Shown here: positions 2,548 to 31,911 of the stretch, piece after piece | Layout of the letters: every line of letters begins with the position of its first letter | Numbering within the stretch: position 1 is the first letter of the stretch | Notes under the pieces: model-generated | The model's input: the letters and a program-made list of their open reading frames with translations, nothing else | What the model was told of the DNA's origin: nothing | Databases searched by the model: none | Translations under genes and position numbers: made by a program | NCBI GenBank assembly: GCA_015490175.1 | Contig: WFYJ01000170.1 | Span: forward strand, 1-40,936 | Origin: Saprospiraceae bacterium | Lineage (GTDB): Bacteria; Bacteroidota; Bacteroidia; Chitinophagales; Saprospiraceae | Direction of reading: 5' to 3' | DNA length: 40,936 nucleotides

Positions 2548-2922
2548 ATGCCTACGATCAATCAGTTGGTTCGCAAGGGTCGCAAGAAAGTGGTGACCAA
2601 GAGCAAGTCGCGCGCACTGGACGGCTGTCCGCAGCGTCGTGGCGTATGCACGCGTGTGTACACCACCACGCCGAAGAAGCCGAACTCGGCCCTGCGCAAA
2701 GTGGCCAAGGTGCGCCTCACCAATGGCACCGAGGTCATCGCCTACATCCCCGGCGAGGGGCACAACCTTCAGGAGCACTCCATCGTGCTGGTGCGCGGTG
2801 GCCGTGTGAAGGACTTGCCGGGTGTGCGTTACACCATCGTGCGCGGTGCGCTCGACACGGCCGGTGTGGCCGACCGCCGGCAAAGCCGCTCGCGTTACGG
2901 TACCAAGCGTCCCAAGAAGTAA
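2548..2922 (+). CDS. rpsL: Small ribosomal subunit protein uS12
   Basis: A 124-residue S12, full length for the family, starting at the ATG of [11 protein letters not shown]; upstream in-frame alternative starts fall in the leader. S12 sits at the decoding centre of the 30S subunit. The [11 protein letters not shown] stretch (residues 41-51) and the GGRVKDLPG loop (84-92) are intact, with Lys at the positions where streptomycin-resistance mutations usually occur. It is the first gene of the str operon, followed after 55 bases by rpsG. Confidence 0.98.
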
Positions 2923-2977
2923 TTGATGTAATGTTAGTCGTGTAGCTAACCGCTTGCGCTCAAAACTCAATCCTGAC

Positions 2978-3445
2978 ATGAGAAAAAGAAAACCAAAACC
3001 AAGAGTCCTTGCGCCCGATCCCCGCTACGGTGATCCCATGGTGACGCAGTTCGTCAACAACATGATGTGGGAAGGCAAAAAGAGCACGGCCTTCCGCGTG
3101 TTCTACAAGGCCATGGATATCGTCAAGGAGCGGACCAAGGAGAACGAATACGAAATCTGGAAGAAGGCGCTCAACAACGTCATGCCTCAGGTCGAGGTGC
3201 GCAGCCGCCGCATCGGTGGTGCGACCTTCCAGATCCCTGTGGAAATTCGTCCTGCCCGCCGCCTCTCGGTTGGAATGAAGTGGTTGATTCGGTTTGCGCG
3301 TCAGCGCAGCGGCAAAGGCATGGCAGAAAAACTGGCCGCCGAAATCATGGCTGCAAGCCGTGGCGAAGGCGCTGCCGTCAAGCGCAAGGAAGACACCCAC
3401 AAGATGGCAGAATCGAACCGCGCATTTGCTCATTTCCGCGTTTGA
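2978..3445 (+). CDS. rpsG: Small ribosomal subunit protein uS7
   Basis: A 155-residue S7, the normal bacterial length. It nucleates assembly of the 30S head by binding 16S rRNA. I chose the ATG of [11 protein letters not shown], preceded by TGAC; an upstream TTG would add eight non-homologous residues. The C-terminal RAFAHFRV end is typical. It lies between rpsL and fusA. Confidence 0.97.
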
Positions 3446-25587: not shown

Positions 25588-26676
25588 ATGAAGTATCAGG
25601 TACGCGTTACGCGCACGACGGCTTCGCGCCTGTCCCGGGTCGATTTCGACAACCTGCCTTTCGGCAAATACTTTAGCGATCACATGTTCGTCGCCGAGTA
25701 TCGCGACGGCCAATGGCAGGATTTGCGCATCGAGCCGTTGTCGGAATTTGCGACGCACCCGGCCACCATGGCCTTGCACTATGGCCAGGCGGTATTCGAA
25801 GGCATGAAAGCTTCGAAGAGCCACGACGGCCGTCCGATGCTTTTCCGTCCGGAGATGCATGCCCGCCGCCTCAACTTTTCCGCCCGTCGGCTGGCCATGC
25901 CCGAGTTTCCCGAAGATCTGTTCGTAGAGGCCCTGCACATGCTCGTCGGCATCGATGCCGACTGGATCCCGCCGAAGAAAGGCAGTGCCCTGTACATCCG
26001 CCCGTTCATGTATGCCACCGACCCGTATGTGGGCGTGCGTCCGTCCGACACGTATCGTTTCGTGATCTTCACCTGTCCGGTAGGGCCGTACTACCCCAAG
26101 CCGGTGAGCCTGCTGGCCGAGACCCACTACATCCGCGCAGCTCGCGGGGGCACGGGCGAAGCCAAAGCGGCCGGCAACTACGCGGCGGCCATGCTGCCGG
26201 CCCGGCTGGCCAACGAGAAGGGCTACGACCAGGTGCTCTGGCTCGACGCCAGGGAGTTCAAGTACATCCAGGAGGTGGGCACGATGAATATCTTCTTCGT
26301 CATCGACGGCAAGGTGGTCACGCCCGATCCCGACCAGGAAGGCACCATCCTGCGCGGCATCACGCGCGACAGCATCATCCACATTTTGCGCGATGAGGGC
26401 TACGAGGTGGAAGAGCGCCGCATCTCGATCGACGAGGTGGTGGCAGCCCATGATGCCGGCAAGCTGCAGGAAGTGTTCGGCACGGGTACGGCCGCCGTCG
26501 TGGCCCACGTGCAAAAGATCGCCTACGAAGGCAAGGAGATGATCCTGCCGCCGGTGGAGGACCGCAAGATCAGTCCGTTTGCCAAGAGCTATATCGACGA
26601 GCTGCGTGCCGGCCTGCGCGAAGACAAGTTCGGCTGGGTGGTGCCCGTGCGCCTGCCCGAGTCGATCGACGTGTGA
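25588..26676 (+). CDS. ilvE: Branched-chain amino acid aminotransferase
   Basis: A 362-residue fold-type IV PLP enzyme of the long BCAT form (group II type). It interconverts leucine, isoleucine and valine with their 2-oxo acids using glutamate. The catalytic Lys is expected at residue 193 within GGTGEAKAAGNYAA; the substrate-pocket YGQAVFEGMKA lies at 65-75 and the PLP phosphate-binding GTGTAAVV near 300. The ATG at 25588 is preceded by GTG in frame; I prefer ATG. It stands alone between a repeat block and a hairpin. Confidence 0.95.
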   Translation: MKYQVRVTRTTASRLSRVDFDNLPFGKYFSDHMFVAEYRDGQWQDLRIEPLSEFATHPATMALHYGQAVFEGMKASKSHDGRPMLFRPEMHARRLNFSARRLAMPEFPEDLFVEALHMLVGIDADWIPPKKGSALYIRPFMYATDPYVGVRPSDTYRFVIFTCPVGPYYPKPVSLLAETHYIRAARGGTGEAKAAGNYAAAMLPARLANEKGYDQVLWLDAREFKYIQEVGTMNIFFVIDGKVVTPDPDQEGTILRGITRDSIIHILRDEGYEVEERRISIDEVVAAHDAGKLQEVFGTGTAAVVAHVQKIAYEGKEMILPPVEDRKISPFAKSYIDELRAGLREDKFGWVVPVRLPESIDV

Positions 26677-26705
26677 GTGAGCCGGTGGTTCCCTGAATAG
26701 CCGTG

Positions 26706-26745
26706 AAAAGCCCCCGGGCAGGTATCCACACCCGTCCGGGGGCTT
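26706..26745 (+). terminator. Hairpin after ilvE
   Basis: AAGCCCCCGG (26708-26717) pairs perfectly with CCGGGGGCTT (26736-26745), extendable by two pairs. There is no U-tract beyond TT, but four As precede it. It probably ends the ilvE transcript and insulates the accessory locus. Confidence 0.65.
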
Positions 26746-26787
26746 CGCGTATGGCAAGAAGTGCTAATTTTTGGGAAACAGGTAGTC

Positions 26788-27205
26788 ATGGCCGCAGATT
26801 TTCGGGATGCATGGATGCGTCACAAAGAGGATGGCGATTTGCTTTATAAAAAAAAGCGGTGGGCCAATGCCGATCACCTTTATGGGCTGGCCGTCGAGTG
26901 TGGACTCAAGGCCGTAATGCAGGCGCTGGGGATGGCGGTGAACCCCACAGGAGTGCCGGTGTCCAGGCAACACAGAGTGCACCTGCCCGATATCTGGTAC
27001 GCTTTCCATGCTTTTGTTTACAGGTCTTCCGGCAGCAGCGGTGCTTCCCTCTTTGAGTCATCCGTCTCCCTTTGATAGTTGGAACGTGCATCAACGCTAT
27101 GAGCCAAGGAGCAATTTCTCGCAAAAAACTGTGGAGGTGCACCGAAAGGGAGTGAAGGAAGTGGCACAATTGTGCCGCCAGGCAGATTTGTACGGATTTT
27201 TATAA
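26788..27205 (+). pseudogene. HEPN-like helical protein, frameshifted
   Basis: From ATG 26788 a protein starts MAADFRDAWMRHKEDGDLLY, followed by ANADHLYGLAVECGLKAVM, the pattern of HEPN-type or related helical nucleotide/RNA-binding proteins (RH..DA..L, then a helix with LA.EC.LK). This frame ends at 27075. The other half, PFDSWNVHQRYEPRSNFSQ and HRKGVKEVAQLC up to 27205, is in the next frame. Removing one base in the T-rich stretch near 27012-27019 joins them smoothly (HAFVTGLPAAAVLP...). The joined protein of about 138 residues ends 7 bases before the next gene. Either a broken gene, a sequencing indel, or a programmed frameshift. Family call is by pattern only. Confidence 0.65.
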
Positions 27206-27212
27206 AGAGGCA

Positions 27213-28493
27213 ATGAGATACGACGAAGTCATACCCGGGCTGGTGGCCATGCTCGAAAAAGAACCCTGGTTCCAGAGCTGGCCGCGCAGCAAGAAGCTGA
27301 TCGTCAATCGCGATGTGCGCGGGCGGATCGCGTTGATCATCCCCAAACAATTGAGAAAGGAGTTGGAGAAAGCTGTGATGGATTTTGCCCGGGAGCGGAT
27401 GGAAGCATTGCAACCCTGGGTGTATCCGGTAGTGGGGCGCGTGTTCAAAGAGGAAATTTTGCCTCCCCTCCCGAGCGCTCCCCAATTCGAAATCAACAAG
27501 AGATTTCCCCATGTTGTAGTGGTCGAGCGCCTGTTGCACGGCAATGAATGGGCCACTGTCGCATAACTTCGGCCCAATCGTCTTGTCTTTTTTTCCGTGA
27601 AGGGAGGTGTGGGCCGTTCTACGGCACTTGCCGCTATGGCCTGGTATCTGGCCGGCAAGGGCAAGCGCGTGCTGGTAGTTGATATGGACTTTCAGGCGCC
27701 GGGCGTGTCGGCCAACCTCTTGCCCGCAGAACAAATGCCCGAACCGGGGCTGGTTGACTGGCTGATGGAGGCAGTGGCAGGAAATGAAGAAGCAATACGG
27801 CCGGAGGAGGTCAGTAATGAAAGTCCGCTGGCAGCGAATTTGAGCGGGGCAATTCGTGTGGTGCCGGCCTATGGGCGAGCCGGCAAAGACTATGTGGCAA
27901 AGATGGGGCGGATTTTTTTGCCGGAGACCGATGCGGCCAATCCCGGAATCCGGAGCTGGACGTATCGGCTGGAAGTGAAAATTCTGAAGCGTCTGGAGAA
28001 AGCGTTTCGTCCCGACCTGGTTCTTTTCGATAGCCGGGCGGGAATTGACGACACGGCTGCAGCAGTAGTGACCAACCTTGGGGCAAAGGTCCTTTTGTTT
28101 GCGCTGGACTCGGCTCAGACCTGGCAAGATTACCGTGTGCTTTTCGACTGCTGGAACAGGTGGGGCAAGGCAGAGGACATTCGCGAGCACCTTCAGATGG
28201 TGGCCGGTCTGGTACCGCCCAAAACGCAAGCTCCCGCTTACCTTGCACGCTTTACCCAACAGTCCTATGGCCTGTTCCTGGAATATCTGTACGATGAGGT
28301 GCCGCCGGGCCAGATAGAGGAGAATTGGTTTTCTTTTGACCTGGAAGACGAGCATGCGCCGCACCATCCCTGGCCCGTGTACTGGCACGAAGGGCTGATG
28401 GCGCTTCAGGAATTCCATACCATGGGCAAGGATGAAATCACAATCGAAGCCGCTTATGGCTCTTTGTTCAGGAAGGTGAGTGAGTGGCTATAA
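27213..28493 (+). pseudogene. KGGVGR-type ParA/MinD-like ATPase, in-frame stop
   Basis: One reading frame runs from ATG 27213 to the stop at 28493, interrupted only by TAA at 27564-27566 (codon 118). The N-terminal part ends in a strand-rich segment PHVVVVERLLHGNEW; after the TAA the frame continues LRPNRLVFFSVKGGVGRST, a deviant Walker A in which the usual GK is GR (K130 to T137), with DMDFQAPG (Walker A') and LVLFDSRAGIDD (Walker B) following. The stop thus lies just before the P-loop strand. No good start exists between (a GTG at 27597 would start inside the strand). Without the stop it would be a 426-codon protein. Nonsense mutation is most likely; read-through or error are alternatives. 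It sits between the HEPN-like gene and a second ATPase. Confidence 0.8.
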
Positions 28494-28504
28494 ATGGAAG
28501 AGGA

Positions 28505-30010
28505 ATGACAGTGAACACTGAAAAGAAAAGCAAGGCTCGTCTTTTGAGGCACGCCATCCACGATTCCATACGCGAGACCTCGTTGCAAGCCGAGGAAATT
28601 TCGCCCAGAGGAATTTTTGTTCCTTCTTCGCACCGCAAAGCGCTGGCACCAGAAATCAAAGTAGTAAAAGGCATGCGGGGTGCAGGCAAGACTTTCTGGT
28701 GGCGGGCTATCCAGCATGCGGAAAACCGGAAGTATCTGGTCGAGGGTGCCGCGTTGTTCGAACTGGATCGGGTGGATGCCTGGGCCTGTTTTGGCGAACA
28801 ACCCGATGAAGCCTGGCCCGACCGCGACGAACTGGCCCGGCTGGCCGACAGGGGCTTTGCTCACCGGCTGGTGTGGAAAACCGTGGTGCTGCAAAGGTTG
28901 TGGCAAACACTCCCCGAGGAAATTGGCGCACAGGTAAAATTACCCTCGGAGTTCCCTTTTGCCAAGAGATGGGAGGAGCAATGCCGGTGGGTAGCGGAAC
29001 ATCCTTCGGAAGTGAAGCAGGCATTCATTGCATTCAACGAGGCATTGAAACGCCAGGACAGGCAATGGATGGGATTGTTCGATGCCCTGGACCGCACGGC
29101 TTCCTCATGGCGCGAAATGGACCAATGGATACAGGGGCTGCTGATGTGTGTGCAGGATCTGGAGCATTTTTATCAGATCCGGTTGAAGTGCTTTTTGCGC
29201 ACCGATCAGCTCGAAGGGCGCAACGTCACCGATTTTCCCGACAGCTCCAAGATCCTGGCCCGATCGATCGAGTTGCAGTGGACGCGCAGGGATCTGTACA
29301 ATCTTTTCTGGCACTATTTGCTGAATTTTTCCCTTGAGGAGGAAAGAAGGGCCGTAGAAGAGCTTTTGTTTTCCGTTGTGCCGCTTGCAGGCAGGACCCT
29401 GCCCGACGAATTTGGTGTGCACCGTATCCCGGAAAAAATTGCCCGCGAGGAGGAATTGCAGCGCAAGGCCTTCCACGAGCTGACGGGCCCTTACATGGGT
29501 ACCGATCATCGGAAAGCCTATCCCTATACCTGGTTGGTCAATCACCTTTCCGATGCCATGGGGCGCGTCAGTCCCCGCAGTTTTATCGTAGCGATCCGGG
29601 AAGCTGCAAAGGACACGGCAGAAGAGCATCCCGATCACGATTATGCCTTGCATTACAACAGCATCAAAAAAGGGGTACAACAAGCTTCGCGGCGTCGGGT
29701 GGACGAGCTGGCCGAGGATTATCCCTGGATACACCAACTGATGGCGCCGCTCGAAGGTCTTTCCGTGCCGGTGGAGTTTGGCGAGATCGAGCGCCGCTGG
29801 CTCAATGATGGTGTGCTCGATCGCTTGTCCGCCTCGAAAGAAGAGCGTTTGCCGCCCGAGCACCTCGAAGATGGGGCGCAAGGCGTGTGTGAGGATTTAC
29901 TCAACCTGGGAATTTTCCGACAAATCAGGGACGGACGGATTGATTTACCCGATATTTATCGAGTGGCATTCGGCTTGGGGCGGAAAGGTGGCGTTCGTCC
30001 GGTCAAGTGA
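28505..30010 (+). CDS. P-loop ATPase of a three-gene accessory locus
   Basis: A 501-residue protein with Walker A GMRGAGKT at residues 56-63, a likely Walker B LFDALDR at 191-197, and FLRTDQLE at 230-237 in the sensor position, resembling STAND/AAA+-type signalling ATPases. The C-terminal half (about 300-500) is helical and ends with a winged-helix-like stretch (EDLLNLGIFRQIRDGRIDLPDIYRVAFG, given here as EDLLNLGIF and LPDIYRVAFG). No membrane segment or known effector domain was recognised. The ATG at 28505 lies 11 bases after the KGGVGR gene stop; a GTG at 28484 would overlap that gene. It is intact, unlike its two partners. Function unknown; conflict or defence-type role is inference. Confidence 0.8.
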   Translation: MTVNTEKKSKARLLRHAIHDSIRETSLQAEEISPRGIFVPSSHRKALAPEIKVVKGMRGAGKTFWWRAIQHAENRKYLVEGAALFELDRVDAWACFGEQPDEAWPDRDELARLADRGFAHRLVWKTVVLQRLWQTLPEEIGAQVKLPSEFPFAKRWEEQCRWVAEHPSEVKQAFIAFNEALKRQDRQWMGLFDALDRTASSWREMDQWIQGLLMCVQDLEHFYQIRLKCFLRTDQLEGRNVTDFPDSSKILARSIELQWTRRDLYNLFWHYLLNFSLEEERRAVEELLFSVVPLAGRTLPDEFGVHRIPEKIAREEELQRKAFHELTGPYMGTDHRKAYPYTWLVNHLSDAMGRVSPRSFIVAIREAAKDTAEEHPDHDYALHYNSIKKGVQQASRRRVDELAEDYPWIHQLMAPLEGLSVPVEFGEIERRWLNDGVLDRLSASKEERLPPEHLEDGAQGVCEDLLNLGIFRQIRDGRIDLPDIYRVAFGLGRKGGVRPVK

Positions 30011-30031
30011 TTTGTTCTGCAAGACAGGCGT

Positions 30032-30062
30032 TGCCGTCAGGTCGGTCCAAGAGCTGACGGCA
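30032..30062. terminator. Hairpin between convergent genes
   Basis: TGCCGTCAG (30032-30040) pairs with CTGACGGCA (30054-30062) around a 13-base loop. It lies in the 60-base space between the P-loop ATPase and the caspase gene, which converge. There is no U-tract, so efficiency is uncertain. Confidence 0.5.
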
Positions 30063-30070
30063 GCGGGCAT

Positions 30071-31702
30071 TTACCACTTGCGCACCACGGCCACCGGCAC
30101 GGTGGTGTCGGCGGTGCCGGTGAGTACGGGTGTCTGCACGCCGGCGGTGTAGCGGCGCACTTCGCGATGTACGTACTGGAACGTCTCTTCGAGGGTGACG
30201 ATGCCGTCGGCGTTGCGGTCGGCCAGGCCCTTGAGCGCTTGGATGAGGAAGTAGCTGAAGACGCCCGAGCGCAGGTTGCTGTCTTCGAGCGAGATCTCCT
30301 CGCTGCGCGATGAGAGCATCAGCGCGATGCCGCCCTGGTCGGGGGTGAGCTGCCCGTACAGCTCGCTCAGGCGCGTGGGTGCCTTGGCGTGCTGGAGGGA
30401 GCCGCTGTGGCAGGCATCGCCCAGTACCAGCTTGAGGCGGGCCTGGCTGCGCTGCAATATTTCGAGGATCTCCTCGTGTGCCAGTTTGTGGAAGCTGCCG
30501 TCGTAGTCGGTAGGCAGGAACGCGCCTTCGATGCCGTGGCCCGAGAAGTAGAAGAGCACCACGTCGTTGTCGTCGGCGCGCAGCAGCACTTCCTGCAGGG
30601 CGCGCAGCACGTGCTCGCGCGTGGCTTCCTCGTCGATGAGGAGGGCCACCTGTTCGTCGGGCAGGGCGCCGCCTTCGGGGCTTTTGAGGAAGCTGTAGAG
30701 CCGGAAGGCGTCGTTGTCGGTGTAGTGGAGAGCCGGCTGGTGACTGTAGGTGGAAATGCCCACGATGACGGCCCAGGTGCGCGCTTCGGGGTCGCGCAGG
30801 GGCTCGACCTCGAGGCGCGGGTAGGGCGCATCGCGGGTGGCGATGATGCGCGTGGTCTGGCCCAGATCCCATTCGGCGGTGAGGATGCGGCCATCGGCAA
30901 AGGTCATGGTGCCCAGGCCGTCGGGCAGCGTGCGGTACCAGCCCCCTTTATAGTGGTCGCCATTGGCGTACCACACCTCGCCCTGTCCGCCCGGCAGGCC
31001 GTTCTTGAACGCGCCCACATAGACCGAGCCGTCGGCAAATACGTAGCGCCCCATCCCTTCAGCACAGTACTCGTTGTTGCAGTCGCGCAAGGGGCTTTTT
31101 GCGCTTTCGGTGACGGGTGCGTGCGCGTCGATGCGCCGGCCTTCGATCCACTTGCCGGTCCAGGCGGAGCCGTCGGCGGCCACCCATTTGCCTTCGCCGT
31201 GCTTTTTGCCCTGGTGCCATTGGCCTTCATAGCGCGTGCCGTCGGCATACTGGCGGATGCCGAAACCCTCGAACTGCCCGCGGACGAACTGTCCTTCGTA
31301 CCAGCCGCCATCGGCAAAGAAGTATTTGCCCTTGCCGTGTGGCAGGTCGTCTTTCCAGTTGCCTTCGTAGCGGGAGCCGTCGGCCCATTTCATCCTGCCG
31401 AAGCCGTTGCGGCGGTCGGCGCGCCACTGGCCGAGGAAGTCGTGCCCTTCGGCAAACTTCAGGCGCCCTTCGCCTTCGCGCAGCCCTTCCACGAACCAGC
31501 CCAGATAGACATCGCCACGGCGGTAGTAGCAGATGCCGCTGCCGTGCATCTTGCCGTTTTTGAACCAGCCTTTGTACACCGTGCCATCCGGAAGGCGCAG
31601 CTCGCCATACCCTTCGGTGCAGTCGCCTTTGAGGCACTGTGCAGGCAAGACGAGGGGGACAAAAACGGAGCAAAGGAGCGAAAGCAACAATAGCCTGACC
31701 AT
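30071..31702 (-). CDS. Secreted MORN-repeat caspase-like protease
   Basis: A 543-residue protein. Residues 1-22 are a Sec signal peptide (MVRLLLLSLLCSVF, ending LPAQ). About eight or nine MORN repeats follow between residues 40 and 275 (YKGWFKNGKMHG, YEGNWKDDLPHGKG, YEGQWHQGKKHGEG and others). A peptidase C14 (caspase/metacaspase) domain covers about 309-530, starting WAVIVGISTY, with catalytic His389 in SGHG and Cys431 in DACHSG. Inside it, residues 495-506 (DRNADGIVTLEE) match the EF-hand calcium loop pattern. The ATG at 31702 is chosen because it places the signal peptide at the N-terminus; the frame extends further upstream without similarity. It would act outside the cytoplasm. It converges on the three-gene ATPase locus. 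Confidence 0.9.
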   Translation of the reverse strand: MVRLLLLSLLCSVFVPLVLPAQCLKGDCTEGYGELRLPDGTVYKGWFKNGKMHGSGICYYRRGDVYLGWFVEGLREGEGRLKFAEGHDFLGQWRADRRNGFGRMKWADGSRYEGNWKDDLPHGKGKYFFADGGWYEGQFVRGQFEGFGIRQYADGTRYEGQWHQGKKHGEGKWVAADGSAWTGKWIEGRRIDAHAPVTESAKSPLRDCNNEYCAEGMGRYVFADGSVYVGAFKNGLPGGQGEVWYANGDHYKGGWYRTLPDGLGTMTFADGRILTAEWDLGQTTRIIATRDAPYPRLEVEPLRDPEARTWAVIVGISTYSHQPALHYTDNDAFRLYSFLKSPEGGALPDEQVALLIDEEATREHVLRALQEVLLRADDNDVVLFYFSGHGIEGAFLPTDYDGSFHKLAHEEILEILQRSQARLKLVLGDACHSGSLQHAKAPTRLSELYGQLTPDQGGIALMLSSRSEEISLEDSNLRSGVFSYFLIQALKGLADRNADGIVTLEETFQYVHREVRRYTAGVQTPVLTGTADTTVPVAVVRKW

Positions 31703-31879
31703 GGGACGTGTGTTTGTGTGTGTTCCGGGAAAAATGGTTGAAGTCGCGGTCAGACCATAGGCAGGCAAAAATTTGATGGCGTTTGGGCGTGGAAACTCTG
31801 ATGGCAGGTTGCTTATTGCGTTTTTCACTTGATGATAATTTGCCATATGTGGCCGTTTGTCGCCCGTTGGGCAGGAACG

Positions 31880-31911
31880 AAAAAGCGGTGTGCAGGGGAG
31901 CTGCACACCGC
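31880..31911 (-). terminator. Terminator of the barrel protein gene
   Basis: An 11-base perfect stem (31885-31895 with 31901-31911), 5-base loop, followed on the minus strand by TTTTT (plus 31880-31884). It ends the transcript of the gene that stops at 31966 and separates it from the caspase gene. Confidence 0.9.

Follow-up and report, generated by a model that had tools for sequence, protein, structure and literature searches.

An in-frame TAA in the ATPase gene of a putative phage-defence operon is probably a nonsense mutation in a decaying, horizontally acquired locus

A 40,936-nucleotide stretch of DNA from a Saprospiraceae bacterium (contig WFYJ01000170.1; hereafter the window) contains a reading frame, positions 27213–28493 of the forward strand, that is open throughout except for a single TAA codon. 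Does this codon mark a broken gene, a recoded one, two separate genes or simply a mistake in the assembly? A preliminary description of the locus, made from the sequence alone, offered a recent nonsense mutation, stop read-through or a base error. Translation agrees with that description on the basic facts: the TAA is the sole internal stop of a frame that ends with another TAA at 28491–28493, and both the strand LVFFSV and the loop KGGVGRST sit 3′ of it. The interrupted gene, gene B, is the second of three adjacent genes on one strand (Table 1).

Table 1. Coordinates of the features discussed, numbered from the first letter of the window
Feature	Coordinates	Strand	Basis
Segment missing from the same-genus genome G001	26675..30079	.	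G001:C6 matches flank both sides, ~98 bp between them in G001
Gene A, PDC-M28A-like (HEPN-like), frameshifted	26788..27205	+	PDLC04558 in two frames
Frame-shift interval of gene A	27050..27069	+	Overlap of two tblastn pieces
Gene B N-terminal domain, 117 aa, ends in in-frame TAA	27213..27566	+	PDLC04559 positions 4-120
In-frame TAA, linker between N-terminal domain and ATPase domain	27564..27566	+	Linker variable across 14 relatives
Gene B KGGVGR-type P-loop ATPase domain	27567..28493	+	NCBIfam NF047398; PDLC04559 128-430
Gene C, PDC-M28C P-loop ATPase, open	28505..30010	+	PDLC04561 E 1.5e-163, 5-479/480

The two halves of gene B match successive parts of the same PADLOC profile, PDLC04559 (PDC-M28B, 438 positions), with E values of 1.2e-11 for the part before the TAA and 3.3e-114 for the 308 residues after it. 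Homology to one profile on both sides of the stop excludes a chance open frame. The ATPase half also matches NCBIfam NF047398, the KGGVGR-motif variant AAA ATPase (E 5.3e-49; 167.1 bits, cut-off 90), and resembles members of that family except that it lies behind a stop codon, without a start of its own. The part before the TAA gave no match in Pfam or NCBIfam. Among solved structures, 14 distinct sequences were matched at E ≤0.01, including ArsA-, ParA- and MinD-like proteins, mostly around the P-loop; these matches carry no information on the stop.

Relatives of gene B were then the measure of its normal form. The window copy was aligned with 14 copies that have no break anywhere in the frame (one from L018, seven from genomes of family f38, one from G310 of the phylum sample and five from plasmids), and seven further plasmid copies were translated; in the latter the P-loop starts after 108–154 residues and there are no internal stops. 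For L065 and L066, which belong to the 14, the N-terminal part was missed by tblastn and recovered by the PDC-M28B profile, which matches these two and the seven additional plasmid copies in one stretch (profile positions 1–30 to 405–435). In G310, B and C share one frame. The count of 21 intact relatives is exclusive of two broken copies (L059 and L060), one cut by a contig end (L062), L061, L063 and the weaker family hits, which are distant or unread, and four unread plasmid hits of 16 (H6, H7, H15 and H16). In 21/21, the N-terminal and ATPase parts lie in one open frame. This result, together with the matches of both halves to PDC-M28B, bears out the earlier proposal that the two halves are one protein; relatives that encode them as separate genes were looked for in the 21 loci and were not found.

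The same comparison bears on the idea that the frame holds two genes, a 117-residue protein and an ATPase with an independent start. The stop does fall between two domains, and a shorter PADLOC profile for B, PDLC04560 (327 positions), matches from just before the ATPase. Set against this are the single frame in the intact relatives and the position of the nearest start codon 3′ of the TAA, a GTG at 27597, which is at the P-loop and already past the first strand of the ATPase. Internal restart was rejected on the same ground, there being no table-11 start codon between the TAA and that strand. We regard two genes as the least probable account of the locus.

Read-through of the TAA, programmed or tolerated, would yield full-length B, and the single stop, the same frame on either side and the retention of conserved residues are what such an arrangement would look like. 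The stop, however, is present at this site in none of the 21 intact relatives, and the linker in which it lies varies in length and sequence in the alignment with the 14; a conserved recoding site was accordingly rejected. TAA is also a normal stop in this genome. It terminates 22 of the 46 open reading frames compared with the same-genus genome G001 (one of the 46, 307–801, overlaps a tRNA and is probably no gene), which rules out a change of genetic code. Among 38 tRNA matches in the assembly, which may be incomplete, none has the anticodon TTA that a suppressor would carry, but near-cognate reading of UAA does not need such a tRNA. Gene A, moreover, is broken as well. Neither read-through nor restart finds positive support here, and read-through to full-length B is accordingly very improbable. 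A variant in which a low and useful level of read-through gives mostly the N-terminal domain and little full-length ATPase, and so provides local control of a dangerous system, is just as hard to credit.

The neighbors of gene B place the stop in context. Genes A, B and C stand in the order of PDC-M28 (PDLC04558, PDLC04559 and PDLC04561), a system of PADLOC-DB, which holds known and candidate defence systems; PDC presumably means "phage defence candidate." With the pieces joined, all three window genes give near full-length matches. Gene C has no stop inside its frame; its score against the NCBIfam Sll1717 family, 69.1 bits, is under the cut-off of 75. Gene A, in contrast to intact members, is frameshifted: in the profile search, positions 1–85 of the 138 in PDLC04558 match in one frame and 85–137 in another, and tblastn with an intact gene A from an uncultured Rhodospirillales MAG (L018) places 26788–27069 in frame 1 and 27050–27202 in frame 2. 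This second lesion was absent from the preliminary description. The window copy thus differs from PDC-M28 by a frameshifted A and a nonsense codon in B, so two of its three genes are broken. Compared with the intact family, gene B carries a disabling lesion, as a pseudogene does. On descent, we class the operon as a broken member of PDC-M28, not a working one.

What an intact operon does is suggested by the family names, which point to candidate anti-phage defence. A HEPN-like character of gene A is hinted at by relatives: HEPN or HEPN_AbiV appears in three of the five A proteins scanned, always under the Pfam cut-off (best scores 15.2 bits vs 27.1 and 14.8 vs 22), and gene A is annotated HEPN in 2/12 plasmid records. 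The 5′ piece of the window gene A has no Pfam match. A second PDC-M28-like module is present in the same genome (L002, contig C159), in which a HEPN gene (PF05168, 29.8 bits vs a cut-off of 22), also matched by PDC-M28A, is followed by a protein that matches both PDC-M28B and PDC-M28C. The latter runs to 1014 aa in a single uninterrupted frame, and differs from the interrupted window copy in this and in its distant sequence (37% over 171 query residues). The gene adjoining the window operon (30071–31906, minus strand) encodes a product in which Pfam recognizes MORN repeats and a caspase domain, and a homolog occupies the same place in G001.

The most serious challenge to a real lesion is that the draft genome contains consensus base errors and that the operon of the organism itself is intact. 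The assembly is a draft of 291 contigs, and two lesions within ~0.5 kb could mark a single stretch of low coverage. We compared 78 open reading frames between G001 and G000, the window's genome: 41 lie in the window and the remaining 37 in three further stretches of 20 kb, with ~72.8 kb matched in all. The comparison flagged two, neither a break; one we take to be a shadow of an infA-like gene and the other the two ends of an S6-like gene. Two more matched in part, at stretch ends. With zero breaks, the 95% upper rate predicts 0.13 errors over 3.25 kb, so that two or more would occur with P ∼0.008, an estimate that assumes even coverage and is sensitive to conserved genes only. Base error is therefore unlikely, though it deserves more weight than the readings considered so far.

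Several observations describe how the operon came to be where it is. G001, the single same-genus genome compared, is collinear with the window, and its matches stop at 26674 and restart at 30080, so that ∼98 bp there correspond to 3,405 bp here. The two parts of B have GC3 values of 0.69 and 0.63, and C has 0.63, whereas 18 other window genes range over 0.65–0.85; codon adaptation is 0.43–0.46 in B and C against 0.43–0.74 in the same 18, which were chosen by hand and also served as the codon-adaptation reference, so that their own values lean high. Within B, codon adaptation is 0.461 before the stop and 0.432 after it (0.24–0.33 in the other two frames), and both values are under those of 17 of the 18 reference genes. 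The earlier statement that codon use is normal after the stop is consequently right if the yardstick is the remainder of the operon, and wrong if it is the host genes. The absence from collinear G001 and the low GC3 suggest that the operon was acquired.

The distribution of the family agrees with this. At 1e-20, six of 398 family genomes were matched, the window copy being the only strong one (the next best, G700, at 1e-45). Three of the 12 plasmid loci read carry BREX (pgl) genes next to the trio, and five have an integrase gene nearby; a phage or viral home was discarded, as there was no match in viral_contigs or phages. In L065, L066 and L068, from plasmids of Thiodictyon, Sphaerotilus and Streptomyces, A-B-C adjoins genes annotated as BREX (pglX, pglW). 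Taken together, the absence from G001, the composition, the rarity in the family and the plasmid context fit horizontal gain of the operon.

How long ago gene B was interrupted can be approached through residue conservation. The window copy retains 44 of the 48 columns (92%) that do not vary among the other 14. When each relative was left out in turn, the values were 48/49 for L064, 48/51 for L065, 48/52 for L066, 48/56 for L058, 48/57 for L068 and 48/59 for L067; L018 and the seven f38 copies, which are similar to one another, gave 48/48. Window B is within the range of its relatives, so either gene B was broken recently or its frame remains under constraint, and conserved columns look the same under both. 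The conservation and the codon bias kept past the stop are compatible with a functioning gene, too. A closer relative with the same insertion, from which the ancestral codon could be read, was looked for and not found: 15 of 100 relatives were matched at E 0.001, all of them distant (best 5.8e-11), and among the 398 family genomes the best match after the window was G700.

Damaged copies also occur elsewhere. Twelve of 395 genomes in the phylum sample were matched at 1e-20, the window's own included; leaving out the distant match G218 gives 11 genomes with close members. Lesions are present in four of these. One is the window's genome, with A and B affected. In G406 (L059), gene B is in two frames and then cut off mid-gene, and the sequence that follows resembles what we take to be an insertion-sequence transposase. 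G398 has a remnant with stretches of B and C only. In G379 (L054), gene A (2787–3200, minus strand) has two TGA codons at conserved Trp residues, which are TGG in the four relatives compared, while B and C are open. The other seven genomes have no stop in the frames read for A or B, nor in the matched span of C; in G457 that span is only partial, and a second copy cut by the contig end was not scored as broken. The break in G406 is near the same junction as that in the window (about residue 97 vs 117) and consists of a frameshift followed by truncation; with two cases only, we do not infer a shared hot spot. Some of these lesions could be errors, the other genomes being drafts too. According to the paper on the PADLOC web server, annotation as a pseudogene is common among putative defence genes and may reflect either errors or what is left of inactivated systems (PMC9252829). 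The window case shows no essential difference from pseudogenised defence genes in general.

The second lesion in the operon, the unbroken neighboring genes, the absence of the operon from G001 and the lesions in three other genomes together favor the first of the three options originally offered, with base error disfavored and read-through left without positive support. We conclude that the TAA is most likely genuine, a nonsense mutation of fairly recent date in gene B of a decaying PDC-M28 operon that was gained horizontally. The 44 retained columns fit a recent break. Translation would end at the TAA, setting the N-terminal domain free, and, with no start codon ahead of the first strand, no complete ATPase would be initiated downstream. 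With A broken too, the defence system would no longer work. If, as the family names imply, intact operons combine an RNase-like HEPN effector (A) with two ATPases (B and C) that detect the invader or regulate A, then loss of either the effector or its controller would leave the remaining genes free to drift.

The window TAA gives no sign of a new decoding mechanism; ordinary inactivation probably accounts for it. Within the library searched in full text, no paper names PDC-M28, KGGVGR or Sll1717, and searches on BREX with HEPN and on defence loss turned up nothing on the PDC-M28 family, which makes its intact members the more useful target. That 4/11 phylum-sample genomes with close members carry lesions, the window's included, suggests that damage to PDC-M28-type operons is not rare. 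The window adds a worked example of a candidate phage-defence operon gained from elsewhere and later disrupted.
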